Of a stretch of 64,000 bases of DNA, positions 43,732-48,959 are shown piece by piece. The first letter of the stretch is position 1, and each line of letters begins with the position of its first letter. The position numbers were made by a program, and so were the translations under genes. A model generated the notes under the pieces. It was not told the DNA's origin, searched no databases, and saw only the letters and a list, made by a program, of their open reading frames with translations. The DNA is from Haloarcula marismortui ATCC 43049 (GTDB lineage: Archaea; Halobacteriota; Halobacteria; Halobacteriales; Haloarculaceae), in contig NC_006396.1 in NCBI RefSeq assembly GCF_000011085.1, positions 496,001 to 560,000 of the forward strand, read 5' to 3'.

Positions 43732-44955
43732 TCAGGTCGCTTCGTCACGTCGCTCCTCGGAAAGCTGTCGCCGCCACTGTGGTGTTTCGAGGAGGAGTCG
43801 GAGCGGCCAGATGACGTAGTACAGCGGGTGCATCGGGCCGGGAAGCGGGCAAAACTGGTACTCCGAGTAGGTCGGGTGAAGTGACGAATGCAACAGTAGG
43901 AGCGGTACCAGCGCAGTCATCGAATCGCTGGCCGCCAGGTAAAATCGAGCGGCCTCAAACTGCGTGGGTGCCTGTGGCGTCCCAGCGGCCAGCGACTCAA
44001 CGACGGCCTCAGCTAATTCGGAGATGCGGCCGTCCGTGCGAAGGCGGTCCAGGAGCGGCGCTGGGAGGGCGTATCCGAAGACAGCACGGGCGAGCGCGGC
44101 CCCGAGTAATAGGTTCCGCTCAACGCCGGTTTCCCGCGCCCGAACGAGGACGTGTGGCCAGTCGGTTTCCGCTGCCTCCAGTGCCGCAACGAAATCACAG
44201 AGCCACTTCAGGAGATACCAGCGGTGCTTGGTGCCATGGAACGCTAATACGAGTAGCCGATCTGGCTGTGCAAGCGCCGGAAGCGGTTGGCCGCCGACCG
44301 ATACGGTGTCGCGGCGGTCCCAGAGTTCACCGAAGGATGTGGAGAACGGTCGCTCGGCATCGCCAACGCGCCAGCGAAGTTCCACGTCGAACTCCGGACC
44401 GCGCATTTCGTACTCGTGAACGATAGCCTTCGTCACAGGACCGCCTAACAGCGCGGCATCATCCAACCGCGGCGTGCCCCCGCGCCACTCGTATCCTCGC
44501 TCTTCGAGAATATCCGCAGCGGCGGGGATATCTTCCGGATGGACGAGCAGATCCAGGTCATTATATTCACGCACCGTTGCGTCGTCGTAAGCAGCGGCGG
44601 ACAGCGCCGGTCCCTTGAACGGTACCGCACGCACACCACGTGTCTCGAAGCGTTCTAGTATCTCCTGTAGCTCGGTCGTGAACGCGAGATTCCGCATCCG
44701 TTTTCCCTGTACGATGCTGCTAAGTCGGGTCAACACGGCCGCCGGCACGGTGAACTCATCACCACTCTCGCGTGCCATTGCTTCCAGTCCCTCGTAGAGG
44801 AGTTGCACGATGCCGTGATACCGGGCGAGTGCAACGACACGGTCCCAGTCTGGCGCGTCATCAAGCGGGGGCGGGTCGGGAGCGGCGTCGGTGACGATCG
44901 CGGTACGAGCACAGTCGACCACCACCTGAAGTTCGGGTTCAGCCTCCGTCAGCAT
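43732..44955 (-). CDS. Nucleotidyltransferase-fold tailoring enzyme of RiPP locus
   Basis: A 407-residue protein of the uncharacterised nucleotidyltransferase family (PF14907-like). VRAVPFKGPALSAAAYDD then REYNDLDLLVHPEDI (near 125-140) supplies the DxD metal site. WRGGTPRLDDAALL and VDVELRWRVGDAERPF-type segments follow. Such a gene is known beside HPr-kinase-like kinases in phosphorylated lasso peptide clusters (paeninodin/pseudomycoidin type). It overlaps the kinase gene by 7 bp. It probably modifies the peptide or its phosphate; donor and product are unknown. Confidence 0.78.
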   Translation of the reverse strand: MLTEAEPELQVVVDCARTAIVTDAAPDPPPLDDAPDWDRVVALARYHGIVQLLYEGLEAMARESGDEFTVPAAVLTRLSSIVQGKRMRNLAFTTELQEILERFETRGVRAVPFKGPALSAAAYDDATVREYNDLDLLVHPEDIPAAADILEERGYEWRGGTPRLDDAALLGGPVTKAIVHEYEMRGPEFDVELRWRVGDAERPFSTSFGELWDRRDTVSVGGQPLPALAQPDRLLVLAFHGTKHRWYLLKWLCDFVAALEAAETDWPHVLVRARETGVERNLLLGAALARAVFGYALPAPLLDRLRTDGRISELAEAVVESLAAGTPQAPTQFEAARFYLAASDSMTALVPLLLLHSSLHPTYSEYQFCPLPGPMHPLYYVIWPLRLLLETPQWRRQLSEERRDEAT

Positions 44956-45863
44956 GACTCACTCTTGAGCTCAGACTGAACTCGGGCTGCGACATCCGGA
45001 AGCATATCGAGAGTGCGCGGCCGGCGGAGCCGTTTTATTTCGGTCATATCGACAATCTCACCGCAGGCAGTGAAGTTGGACACGGCCTGGCCGTCGGCCT
45101 CCAGCGCGCCCAGCGTGTACGTATTATCCACGAGCGCCATGACCTGCTTGTCCGGCCTGACTGCGTCCACCTCGATTGTCTCGCCGTCTTCGAGCAGGTA
45201 AATCCGTTCTAGCGGCACCGGGGTTGCGGGCTGGTCGTGCCTGAGTCCGTAGAAGTGTCGAGGGCGTCCGCTGTGGACCTGTTCCGGCGGTTCGACCGGA
45301 GGGTCAAATGCTTCAACTGCCTCCGGATCGAGTTTCATCGACGGGTAGCCGCTCCGGACGACCGGCCCCGCATCGTCCAGCGCTATCGCAGCCACGTCGT
45401 CGCTCAGGATACGATGTCCGTCGAGCAGGCAGGCCATCGCAGTCGTCGTTTTTCCGACCCCCGACTCTCCGACGAAGGCAACTGCACGCCCGTCGATACT
45501 GACGGTACTGGCGTGCAGCACGAAGTAGCCCCGTTGATCCAGCAGGTGGTTCAACGCCGGGCCGACCAGTACGTGGCGGAGGACTTCGCTTGGCACGTCC
45601 GGAGCCGGGTCTACAGCGATGGATTTACCGTCGAGAATTCTGACCGTTGCGGCGTCGTATAGAAGGTAGTATTCGCGCTCGGTTACCGCGTGAAAGGTCG
45701 ACCCGGACGCAGCAGACAGAGGGCGAGGAATCCGTTCCTCAGTGATGGTGACATCAGCCCGCCCGCCAGGCGCTGTCTCAGCGGACGGAAGCTCTGGTAC
45801 GTCGAAGGCCGAGCGGACTGTCAGTCCAAAGGCTTCGTACGTGGCTGTGTTCGCCGTCGCCAT
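44949..45863 (-). CDS. HPr-kinase-like peptide kinase of RiPP locus
   Basis: A 304-residue protein. Walker A is FVGESGVGKTTTA near residue 129, then HRILSDDVAAIAL, SGYPSMKLDPEAVEAF and a C-terminal lid. This is the HprK-related kinase type (PadeK/ThcoK) that phosphorylates the C-terminal Ser of lasso precursors. The precursor in this locus ends with Ser. ATG at 45863 is preferred; one at 45905 is also in frame. It is coupled to the nucleotidyltransferase gene. No HPr or PTS gene is nearby, which argues against classic HPr kinase. Confidence 0.82.
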   Translation of the reverse strand: MATANTATYEAFGLTVRSAFDVPELPSAETAPGGRADVTITEERIPRPLSAASGSTFHAVTEREYYLLYDAATVRILDGKSIAVDPAPDVPSEVLRHVLVGPALNHLLDQRGYFVLHASTVSIDGRAVAFVGESGVGKTTTAMACLLDGHRILSDDVAAIALDDAGPVVRSGYPSMKLDPEAVEAFDPPVEPPEQVHSGRPRHFYGLRHDQPATPVPLERIYLLEDGETIEVDAVRPDKQVMALVDNTYTLGALEADGQAVSNFTACGEIVDMTEIKRLRRPRTLDMLPDVAARVQSELKSESC

Positions 45864-46096
45864 CCTGCTAGTTTCCCCCTTGCGTAGTTGTCCATCTATT
45901 CCGTCCATCCTGAAACACACCCCATCTACGACACCCCTGATTCATACCAGAGCGCTTGACTGCTGTGGTGGATAAGAATGCGCTCTCTACTTCCATCACA
46001 CAGCCACGAAACCATCGCGATGTATCCACTGCACGGTGCCAGTGTCGAGGACCGATAAAAGAGGGATCAGTTAGATGTGTGAACCGGCTGTGGACG

Positions 46097-46195
46097 TTAA
46101 CTCCACTTCCCGTATCCGTCGTCGTGGTCCCACCAGTTCGTCTTCTCTTCAACAGTTCCGTACGTTTCGACCGACGGCGTTTCGTATTCCTTCAT
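46097..46195 (-). CDS. RiPP precursor peptide, lasso-type leader (32 residues)
   Basis: ATG at 46195 has a perfect GGAGGT 5 bp upstream and a TATA at 46236-46245. The 32-residue product has Y4, P7, V9, G13 and T19 at the exact spacing of the lasso leader motif YxxPx(L/V)x3Gx5T. The predicted core begins at residue 21: WWDHDDGYGKWS, ending in Ser, the residue used by HprK-like peptide kinases. The core has no Asp or Glu at positions 7-9, so a lasso ring cannot form by the usual rule. It lies between the B2 and kinase genes on their strand. Confidence 0.8.
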   Translation of the reverse strand: MKEYETPSVETYGTVEEKTNWWDHDDGYGKWS

Positions 46196-46200
46196 TGGTT

Positions 46201-46206
46201 ACCTCC
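46201..46206 (-). promoter_or_regulatory. Strong ribosome binding site of the precursor gene
   Basis: GGAGGT on the minus strand, 5 bp before the ATG at 46195. Most starts in this window are leaderless or coupled; a full-strength site here supports high translation of the peptide. Confidence 0.7.
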
Positions 46207-46235
46207 ACGCCTGCTTTCAGATATCATTGTATTTG

Positions 46236-46245
46236 TTATATTATC
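46236..46245 (-). promoter_or_regulatory. TATA box of the precursor gene
   Basis: GATAATATAA on the minus strand within an AT-rich 60-bp stretch. It predicts a transcript start near 46213-46220 with a short leader containing the GGAGGT site. Confidence 0.45.
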
Positions 46246-46287: not shown

Positions 46288-46752
46288 TTAGCCACGTACT
46301 TCGCGTTCCGTGAGTGCTCGGAAACGCCCAAAGTCGTCGACATCCCCGATAAGGACATCACCGTTTGACTCGACCCAAGCATGAGCCTCGAACGTATCGG
46401 ACTGTGTATCCACACCGAAGCGGAGACAATGTGGGAAGTCACTCGCCTCCAGCAAGGTACTCCCGGTGAGTGCTCGCTCAAGACAATCGTAAGTGCCCGG
46501 AAGACGCGACCCTGCTGTTAAAACCGCCCAGCGTACTGACTTCGGTGCTTCAGGCTGACGATGACACGGGAGGAACTGAGAGACCGTGCCGAAACAGCGC
46601 TCTGCGTCCTCCAGCCCAACGACTGTAAGCAGTACTTTGCTCGCAACGATCAGTGCCACTGCTTCACAGAGTAATAGCTTCTGCGCCCGTGACAACGCCC
46701 TGAACTCACGGAATCGGGCTCGCATCGACCTTGATGAGTTGCTCCGCGGCAA
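46288..46752 (-). CDS. Lasso-type B2 leader peptidase (transglutaminase-like)
   Basis: A 154-residue cysteine protease of the lasso B2 family. Catalytic residues are Cys90 in GTYDCLERALTGSTLLEAS, His124 in FEAHAWVESNGD, and a following Asp (132). The N-terminal helix RAQKLLLCEAVALIVASKVLL is common in this family. It would cut the leader between residues 20 and 21 of the precursor. It overlaps the B1 gene by 47 bp from ATG 46752, or by 20 bp from ATG 46725. Confidence 0.85.
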   Translation of the reverse strand: MPRSNSSRSMRARFREFRALSRAQKLLLCEAVALIVASKVLLTVVGLEDAERCFGTVSQFLPCHRQPEAPKSVRWAVLTAGSRLPGTYDCLERALTGSTLLEASDFPHCLRFGVDTQSDTFEAHAWVESNGDVLIGDVDDFGRFRALTEREVRG

Positions 46753-47002
46753 GCGTTTTCAGAAAGCGTTCCACATCATTTGCCACTCGGTCTCTCTCGA
46801 CATCGTACTCCCCGACCAGCGCCGAGACGATGTCCACTGGCTCAGTCGGTTCCTGAATTCGCTCCCAGATATCCGGGCCGACCCCTGACAGGCCCTGATA
46901 CCGCCCCGTCTCGTTGTTGAGCAACACGATCTCCCCGTCGATAGTCGTAGTGACACAGTCGTCAGTTGCGACAACAGCCGACTCGAAATCTATCGCGACC
47001 AT
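46706..47002 (-). CDS. Lasso-type B1 RiPP recognition element (PqqD-like)
   Basis: A 98-residue PqqD-like domain: TIDGEIVLLNNETGRYQGLSG near residue 20, then PDIWERIQEP and VSALVGEYDVERDRVANDVE followed by FLKTLAAEQLI. The fold holds the leader peptide and presents it to B2. It is encoded separately from B2, the split arrangement of Gram-positive and archaeal clusters. It is the first gene of the minus-strand half, divergent from the exporter. Confidence 0.85.
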   Translation of the reverse strand: MVAIDFESAVVATDDCVTTTIDGEIVLLNNETGRYQGLSGVGPDIWERIQEPTEPVDIVSALVGEYDVERDRVANDVERFLKTLAAEQLIKVDASPIP

Positions 47003-47150: not shown

Positions 47151-48959
47151 ATGGCTGCTACTCCTTCCGTCAGTGAAAAATACGCATCGTTGCGCCGCGT
47201 GGCGCTGTATCGGCCGGCGCTGACGGGGAGTATCGTTGCCGCCAGCCTCTTTGTAATGCTACTCGAAGGTGTTGGCCTCTCGTTCCTGTTTCCGATACTC
47301 GACGCCGCACAGGCCGGGCAGAGCCTTCCGCTTCAGGCAAACGGCGTCACCGGCCGGTTTCTTTCCGTGTACGTCGCTGCAGGGCTGCCGGTCACACTCG
47401 AATTCCTGTTGGTCGGCCTCGCGTGCGTGATGGTCATCCGGTTTACGGCGTCGTTTGCGGTGAAATGGCTCGCAGCAAAACTCACACAGACGTACGAGCG
47501 TGACCTCAAAGACCGGGCCTACGAACTGGCGATGGGCGCATCAGTCGCCTACTACGACGACAAGGGGTCCGACGACATCATGAACACGATTCTGACACAG
47601 ACCCGCTACGCCGGGCGTGTCATCGGCCGGATTATCCAGTTCTTCCAGCAGGCAATCCTCTGTCTGGTGTATATCGGGATCGCACTCGCTATCGCTCCGG
47701 TGCTGGCAGTCGGTGCAGCTGTCGCTCTCGGCGGTGTCACGGCGATCATCAGATACGGCATCGAGCCCGGGTACGCCGTTGGCGACCGTGTGGCGACGGC
47801 AAACGAACAGCTACAGGAGACAACACAGGCGGGGACGCAAGGTATCCGTGACGTGAAGCTGTTTGGTATGCGCGACGGGCTGCTTGCCGAGTTCCGGTCC
47901 ACACTCGACCGGTACACTTCGACTAGCGTCGCCGTTCGCCGGAACCAGGTTGCAATCGGAAGCCTCTATCGGCTCTCGGTCTCGCTGCTCCTGTTTGGCC
48001 TTGTCTACGTCGCCATCAGTTTCCGGGCGCTGTCTATCGCGGAACTCGGCGTGTTCCTGTTCGCGATGCTCCGACTCGCCCCCCGGCTGAGTTCGCTCAG
48101 CTCCACCATCTACGCGATCGAGGGAGAACTCCCACATCTGGTCCGAACTCACCAGTTCATCGACCGCCTCGAAGCCCAGCAGGAACCAACTGGCGGGCAG
48201 TCGGTCCCGGACAGCATTGAGGAAATCGCGTTCGAGAACGTCTCGTTCGCCTACGAGGACGAGCCAGTGCTTGCGGACTTTTCGATGGCCGTCGACCGAG
48301 GGGAGTTCGTCGGCATCGTCGGCAAGTCCGGCGGCGGCAAATCGACAGTCGTCTCACTGCTCACGCGACTCTATACCCCGGATAGCGGTGAGGTTCTGGC
48401 GAACGGGACGCCAATTTCGGCCTATGCGCTTGAGGAATGGCGTGAGGCTGTTGCGATGGTTCGACAGGACCCGCATATCTTCAACGATACGCTGCGGTAC
48501 AATCTCACTGCCGGTCGGGATATCACCGAGGAAACGCTCTATGAAGTCGCTGAGAAGGCACTCATCCTCGAATTCCTTGACGACCTTCCGCAGGGACTCG
48601 ACACGGTACTGGGCGACGACGGCGTGAAACTGTCCGGCGGGCAGCGCCAGCGCGTCGCACTAGCTCGCGCGCTTCTGGCCGATGCGGAGGTACTCGTGCT
48701 TGATGAGGCCACCAGCGACCTCGACTCGAATCTGGAACAGCAAATCCATCGAACCGTTGAGACGCTTGACGGGGACCAGACTGTGATCGCGATCGCCCAC
48801 CGACTCTCGACGGTTTCAAACGCCGACCGGATATACACTGTTGAGGACGGGCAGGTCACAGAGCGAGGCAGCCACGCCGAGCTGCTCAACGACAACGGGA
48901 CGTACGCGGAGCTGTACGCGATGCAGGGAACGGCAGCCGCACAGTCTTCCAGTGGCTAA
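47151..48959 (+). CDS. ABC exporter (permease-ATPase fusion) of RiPP locus
   Basis: A 602-residue half-transporter. Six membrane segments occupy about 20-320. The ATPase has Walker A VGKSGGGKST near 393, a Q-loop in VAMVRQDPHIFND, signature LSGGQRQRVALARALL near 498, Walker B VLVLDEATSDLD, and AHRLST. This is the MsbA/lasso-D type that exports mature peptide and often gives immunity. It is divergent from B1 across a 148-bp region with an inverted repeat. Confidence 0.88.
   Translation: MAATPSVSEKYASLRRVALYRPALTGSIVAASLFVMLLEGVGLSFLFPILDAAQAGQSLPLQANGVTGRFLSVYVAAGLPVTLEFLLVGLACVMVIRFTASFAVKWLAAKLTQTYERDLKDRAYELAMGASVAYYDDKGSDDIMNTILTQTRYAGRVIGRIIQFFQQAILCLVYIGIALAIAPVLAVGAAVALGGVTAIIRYGIEPGYAVGDRVATANEQLQETTQAGTQGIRDVKLFGMRDGLLAEFRSTLDRYTSTSVAVRRNQVAIGSLYRLSVSLLLFGLVYVAISFRALSIAELGVFLFAMLRLAPRLSSLSSTIYAIEGELPHLVRTHQFIDRLEAQQEPTGGQSVPDSIEEIAFENVSFAYEDEPVLADFSMAVDRGEFVGIVGKSGGGKSTVVSLLTRLYTPDSGEVLANGTPISAYALEEWREAVAMVRQDPHIFNDTLRYNLTAGRDITEETLYEVAEKALILEFLDDLPQGLDTVLGDDGVKLSGGQRQRVALARALLADAEVLVLDEATSDLDSNLEQQIHRTVETLDGDQTVIAIAHRLSTVSNADRIYTVEDGQVTERGSHAELLNDNGTYAELYAMQGTAAAQSSSG

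Follow-up and report, generated by a model that had tools for sequence, protein, structure and literature searches.

Organization of the locus

A set of six genes, encoding a precursor peptide (A), a discrete RRE protein (B1), a leader peptidase (B2), a kinase, an NTP_transf_5 protein and an ABC exporter, lies between conserved DUF790 and DUF7122 genes in Haloarcula marismortui. B1, B2, A, kinase and NTP_transf_5 follow one another on the minus strand, and the exporter diverges on the plus strand. Coordinates refer to the window, that is, the whole stretch of 64,000 nucleotides that was analyzed.

47151..48959, plus strand: ABC exporter, membrane and ATPase domains, no peptidase domain (PF00664, PF00005; MsbA/HepA-like)
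46706..47002, minus strand: B1, discrete RRE of the PqqD family (PF05402, E = 2.5e-18; TbiB1 structure 5v1u, E = 2e-15)
46288..46752, minus strand: B2, leader peptidase, Transglut_core3/lasso B2 (PF13471, E = 3e-17; NF033537, E = 4e-24, above cut-off)
46234..46240, minus strand: TATA-like promoter element TATAACA, 45 nt before the ATG of A
46201..46206, minus strand: Shine-Dalgarno-like GGAGGT, 5 nt before the ATG of A
46097..46195, minus strand: precursor peptide A, 32 aa, MKEYETPSVETYGTVEEKTNWWDHDDGYGKWS, ATG start and TAA stop
46136..46195, minus strand: predicted leader MKEYETPSVETYGTVEEKTN, residues 1-20, with Y4xxP7xV9 (RRE-binding), G13 and T19 at -2 (motif scan)
46100..46135, minus strand: predicted linear core WWDHDDGYGKWS, 12 aa (sequence and orthologues)
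46055..46062, minus strand: T-rich stretch TCTTTTAT, 3' of the stop codon, its T-run conserved in sister species
44949..45920, minus strand: HprK/PEPCK-fold kinase with His-Lys-Asp-Asp residues (HprK_C, 28 bits, below GA)
43732..44955, minus strand: NTP_transf_5 nucleotidyltransferase-like protein, PsmN/LppN type (PF14907, E = 1.4e-65)

The pair of B1 RRE and B2 leader peptidase that characterizes lasso systems is thus present, and the sequence-only reading, which had placed A beside B1, B2 and kinase genes, named its neighbors correctly. B1 scores 59.9 bits against the lasso RRE TbiB1, 41.5 bits against 9x90 (lasso PqqD) and 21.1 bits against 9x8z (PqqD family). In the alignment, B2 keeps its Cys-His-Asp residues. 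The predicted model of the kinase (pLDDT 91) matches PEPCK and HprK/P in Foldseek with E values of 4e-8 to 1e-5, and 23 relatives all keep its residues H117, K138, D155 and D156, the counterparts of the H, K, D and D described in lasso kinases (PMC9266682); both the kinase and B1 score under the NCBIfam family cut-offs. No radical SAM, YcaO or oxidase gene was found at the locus.

The precursor and its expression signals

The open reading frame proposed for A was read from ATG to TAA on the minus strand, and Y4, P7, V9, G13 and T19 all stand at the lasso-leader spacing that had been claimed for them. Counting T19 as -2 puts Y4, P7 and V9 at positions -17, -14 and -12, where lasso leaders contact the RRE (PMC10368454), and the leader thereby conforms to Y(-17)xxP(-14)x[LV](-12) with T(-2). 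The pattern YxxPx[LV]xxxGxxxxxT has a single exact match across the six frames of the window, namely A; 60 Markov-1 random windows average 0.08 occurrences per 64 kb over all frames, and in none of them does it lie within a short ORF that has a start codon. The proposal could have fallen to a better-fitting small frame, but none was found near the locus. The lasso leader model NF033521 gives A 15.4 bits, below its cut-off of 19.

As the sequence-only reading had it, residues 7-9 of the predicted core WWDHDDGYGKWS are G, Y and G, and Asp occurs at positions 3, 5 and 6 only. Hence the core lacks the lasso acceptor (Asp/Glu at core position 7-9, with a threadable tail), a statement that hinges on the predicted cleavage site. 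The only Ser of the predicted core is the C-terminal S32, and there is no Ser3. Cleavage after residue 20 holds as the predicted boundary but not as an exact one: haloarchaeal lasso precursors follow the T(-2) rule only roughly, and the exact core boundary of A is therefore itself a prediction.

The claim that A has its own TATA box was borne out, TATAACA being kept in all Haloarcula loci and in L048 and L059, with 13 of the 20 columns around it invariant. The ribosome-binding signal fared less evenly: GGAGGT is present upstream of A, but most sister species have GGGGGT in its place. The T-rich stretch TCTTTTAT is a possible archaeal terminator.

Conservation and dynamics of the locus in Haloarcula

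A collection-wide scan with B2 returned Haloarcula argentinensis and H. sebkhae as close relatives. A itself is present in 11 of the 32 Haloarcula genomes, exactly those with a B2 of this type; at the locus of one further genome with B2, the twelfth (G395), the precursors are of lasso type. The 32-mer is identical in nine Haloarcula species and differs by S32D alone in G055; in G184 the core lacks one Asp and has Asp as its last residue. Over ten species, in which all genes of the locus are open, A has a dN of 0.005 and a dS of 0.12, and B1, B2, the kinase, NTP_transf_5, the exporter and the flanking genes have dN of 0.03-0.07 and dS of 0.30-0.45; the dN/dS ratio is 0.04 for A versus about 0.1-0.23 for the other locus genes. 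No neighboring 32-codon window has a pS below that of A, and 86 of its 96 coding columns (about 89-90%) are invariant, compared with 30-47% in most flanking blocks. Far from lacking conservation in related loci, which would have counted against the frame, A is strongly conserved and, judged by this pattern, is a real gene.

A also keeps synonymous codons such as GGA, GGG and ACT unusually well. Its low synonymous divergence could reflect an RNA-level or expression constraint and points to a possible constraint beyond the protein sequence, on RNA or DNA. Precursor A is identical in L044 (G051), where the otherwise conserved Gly-Asp after the catalytic His region of B2 reads Gly-Gly, so that the protease may be altered there.

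In six of the seven locus-free Haloarcula genomes inspected, the DUF790 and DUF7122 genes adjoin with no locus genes between them. The seventh, G187 (L086, 2181-3323), contains a real remnant of a decayed locus, in which a truncated NTP_transf_5 abuts the end of the ABC gene and A, B1, B2 and the kinase are gone. The empty sites and this remnant together indicate that gain or loss affects the gene set as a whole.

Absence of a cyclase

No lasso cyclase (the Asn-synthetase homologue, or C protein) was found at the locus or elsewhere in the genome of H. marismortui (4,274,642 bases in 9 contigs, 99.99% complete). PF00733 gives four matches in three proteins of this genome: a 390-aa AsnB-like protein, a counterpart of which recurs in the searched haloarchaea, and two proteins that are LarE-like and argininosuccinate-synthase-like by sequence. 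The cyclase is thus missing as had been claimed. At most other haloarchaeal B2 loci a cyclase of 620-730 aa lies close by, and on Halopiger xanaduensis plasmid pHALXA01, the only locus that the plasmid search returned, an asnB-type cyclase directly follows B2.

A branch of cyclase-less loci in haloarchaea

B2 was found in 33 of the 391 sampled genomes of the class. In a tree of concatenated B1, B2, kinase, NTP_transf_5 and exporter sequences, built without a bacterial outgroup and hence with its root not fixed, the cyclase-less loci (Haloarcula, G036, G317, both loci of G322, and G390) all fall on one side of a split (ultrafast bootstrap 96) and span several genera. A profile of A retrieved orthologues in Haloarcula, G036 and G317 only, weaker leader matches lying mostly in other B2 loci. 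The sequence-only reading had suggested looking for the leader motif beside B1, B2 and kinase genes in other haloarchaea and aligning the cores; the haloarchaeal loci show a cyclase-less branch whose cores are mostly short and without the ring motif.

Predicted cores of cyclase-less loci have 8-26 residues, mostly 8-17, versus 22-32 in loci with a cyclase, and nearly all of the latter contain an 8-residue ring motif, [N/D]KxGxxxD (for example, NKIGSGED). This motif, which was defined after the cores had been seen, occurs in 1 of 7 cyclase-less and 15 of 16 cyclase lineages (p = 0.0005). Asp or Glu at positions 7-9 was found in 1 of 15 cyclase-less precursors versus 14 of 27 from cyclase loci (p = 0.006, with paralogues that are not independent), a separation that is partial because the ring motifs start 0-4 residues later in cyclase loci. 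Some cyclase-less relatives have no Asp or Glu whatever (WGRRRRWGGGWKYNRS) or cores of 8-10 residues. The agreement that had been noted between missing acceptor and missing cyclase holds across the cyclase-less branch as a whole, but not without exception, as G036 (Halobacteria) has Asp9 in its core yet no cyclase.

The sampled loci display several further precursor arrangements. In cyclase loci L037-L045, L058-L065 and L083, the motif [NDE]K.....D begins 1-4 residues past the T(-2)-predicted site, and leader cleavage in haloarchaeal lasso peptides may depart from the T(-2) rule. The cyclase-less locus L035 (G322:C1, 14726-18429) encodes at least six precursors with lasso leaders, whose cores of 8-12 aa each contain GSEP, GSYP or YSEP; the Ser common to them may be a kinase target. 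Three precursors are encoded in another cyclase-less locus, L049 (G390:C5, 9733-11178), one of them with 19 consecutive Gly in its core. A second precursor type with the core G[RN]HFS[RA]VDGNSGTTGNRG is found in L038 (14892-15038) and L043 (4812-4946) beside an additional divergent kinase gene. Finally, L061 (G002) is a B1/B2/NTP_transf_5 locus with no recognized precursor nearby and with a cyclase and a leader-like match about 20 kb away.

Proposed biosynthesis

Starting from the conservation of A, the operon, the domain identities of its products, the missing cyclase and the branch of cyclase-less loci, we consider A to be probably the precursor of a linear, lasso-derived, phosphorylated and exported RiPP, whose leader would be bound by B1 and cleaved by B2. 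The individual steps are modeled on characterized homologues. A would be transcribed from its own promoter, and B1 would bind the leader through Y(-17)xxP(-14)xV(-12). The HprK/PEPCK-fold kinase would then phosphorylate the precursor, most likely at the C-terminal Ser32, by analogy with PadeK, which phosphorylates a C-terminal Ser; NTP_transf_5 may subsequently add a sugar or a nucleotide to the phosphate, sugar addition having been proposed for PsmN (PMC9266682). Cleavage by B2 at residue 20 or close to it would free the core from the leader, and a short linear peptide of about WWDHDDGYGKWS would then be exported by the ABC transporter. No macrolactam ring is expected, because the genome lacks a lasso cyclase and the core lacks an acceptor at positions 7-9; the earlier interpretation of A as a precursor whose core cannot form a lasso ring is supported.

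The phosphorylation step calls for some caution. In G055 and G184, S32 is replaced by Asp, which leaves the core without any Ser or Thr, but the kinase and its HKDD residues are kept, which renders the phosphorylation site, or the role of the kinase, uncertain. The Ser/Asp exchange fits replacement of a phosphosite by a constant negative charge, in which case the retained kinase would need another role. In the linear polyphosphorylated peptide (LPP) system, Tyr and Thr did not substitute for Ser (PMC13381572).

As to function, we speculate that the near-frozen core serves a conserved purpose, such as signaling or cell-envelope chemistry, rather than that of a diversifying toxin. A more far-reaching version, which we regard as possible but less likely than not, would make the product an archaeal peptide hormone or envelope factor, a near-invariant linear phospho- or glycopeptide from lasso machinery that, after a single loss of its cyclase, diversified across haloarchaea. 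Under this tentative version, leader recognition, kinase and export would have been kept for short linear cores as different as WWDHDDGYGKWS, tandem GS[EY]P, polyglycine and Arg/Trp cores.

Alternative explanations

The alternative that best withstands the data, although we regard it as unlikely, is a PQQ-like or cross-linked product, in which the core would be modified by an enzyme encoded elsewhere into a cofactor, metal ligand or structural peptide. A core rich in Trp, Tyr, His and Asp and nearly constant between species, as for a cofactor- or hormone-like product, would suit this explanation, and the authors of the LPP study suspect partner enzymes outside the core cluster (PMC13381572). 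Against it, the Haloarcula locus holds the six described genes only, with no radical SAM, YcaO or oxidase gene among them.

A is considerably less likely to give rise to a lasso peptide after all, its ring being closed by an unrecognized or distant ATP-dependent ligase, perhaps following a shifted cleavage. All of B1, B2, the kinase, NTP_transf_5 and the exporter are lasso-type parts, and, given the looseness of the T(-2) rule in haloarchaea, a core starting at T19 (position 1) would put Asp26 at position 8; the Asp9 of the cyclase-less G036 core also speaks in favor of a ring. However, every PF00733 protein of the genome is assigned to another family, the deletion of one Asp in L048 is incompatible with the shifted frame, and the cyclase-less relatives that have 8-10-residue cores or lack any Asp or Glu argue against ring closure.

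It is highly improbable that this is a lasso locus in decay, deprived of its cyclase and without a product. G187 demonstrates that such loci do decay, and many species have no locus, but purifying selection acts on the open genes in ten species, the precursor is the most conserved part, and cyclase-lessness spans several genera. That A, being just 32 aa long, is a chance ORF with a fortuitous leader match is refuted by its conservation, and, given also its perfect co-occurrence with this B1/B2 type and the lack of any comparable ORF in 60 random windows, we reject this explanation as next to impossible.

Comparison with known systems

Among known systems, the closest is that of the LPPs, which lacks a cyclase and gives linear polyphosphorylated intermediates (Popov et al. 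2026, PMC13381572). The Haloarcula system resembles it in its discrete RRE, HprK-like kinase, NTP transferase, MsbA-like exporter and YxxPxV leader, and in having no macrolactam cyclase, so that the gene complement expected of an LPP system is present. The linear nature of the product has been characterized for LPPs, whereas for Haloarcula it is suggested by the genes. The two systems differ in leader removal, which a SipW-like signal peptidase carries out in LPPs, whereas the Haloarcula locus has a lasso B2 in its place and no further gene. They also differ in the leader itself, since of the LPP motif YxxPxVLxHQxIxFETxxS Haloarcula A has the YxxPxV part only and keeps the lasso G(-8)/T(-2) spacing. 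Thus, both the SpI (SipW)-like peptidase and the full leader motif of LPPs are missing. Furthermore, LPP cores are variable and carry phospho-Ser3, whereas the 12-aa predicted core of A is almost invariant and without Ser3, and LPPs are stated to be restricted to Bacillota (PMC13381572), whereas Haloarcula is an archaeon.

Kinase-tailored lasso peptides (paeninodin, pseudomycoidin and Bsf) share with Haloarcula the set of A, B1, B2, kinase, NTP_transf_5 and exporter together with the leader motif, and in paeninodin the kinase acts on the linear precursor, at its C-terminal Ser (PMC9266682). Unlike these systems, the Haloarcula locus has neither a cyclase gene nor a ring acceptor, and hence no lasso. 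Haloarchaeal cyclase loci such as that of Halopiger xanaduensis pHALXA01 have homologous B1, B2, kinase, NTP_transf_5 and ABC genes and the same leader type, but differ in the asnB-type cyclase after B2 and in cores of 22-32 aa with the [N/D]KxGxxxD ring motif. In the literature on archaeal lasso or cyclase-less RiPPs in haloarchaea, we found nothing direct beyond a genome note on Haloarcula hispanica Boch-4, the accessible text of which describes an antiSMASH RRE-dependent RiPP cluster with B1, B2 and kinase, 18% similar in its genes to the lasso cluster of Halopiger (Lach et al. 2023, PMC10093198). Very probably this is the same locus as the one described here; that text names no precursor and makes no mention of an absent cyclase. 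In view of the LPPs and of the H. hispanica cluster, the Haloarcula system is not without precedent.

Because the system lacks two LPP features (the peptidase and the full leader motif) and two lasso features (the cyclase and the acceptor), we class it as a lasso relative, by its sequences an archaeal, B2-processed and cyclase-less one that appears LPP-like in its working. If correct, this assignment would add archaea to Bacillota as hosts of linear phosphopeptide RiPPs and would provide a second route to linear phosphopeptides, in which a B2-type lasso system minus its cyclase does what a signal peptidase system does in LPPs. Bacterial systems, in contrast to the near-invariant Haloarcula core, are reported to have an extremely patchy history of gain and loss. 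In haloarchaea that can be grown in culture, such a core allows a conserved biological role to be put to a direct test.
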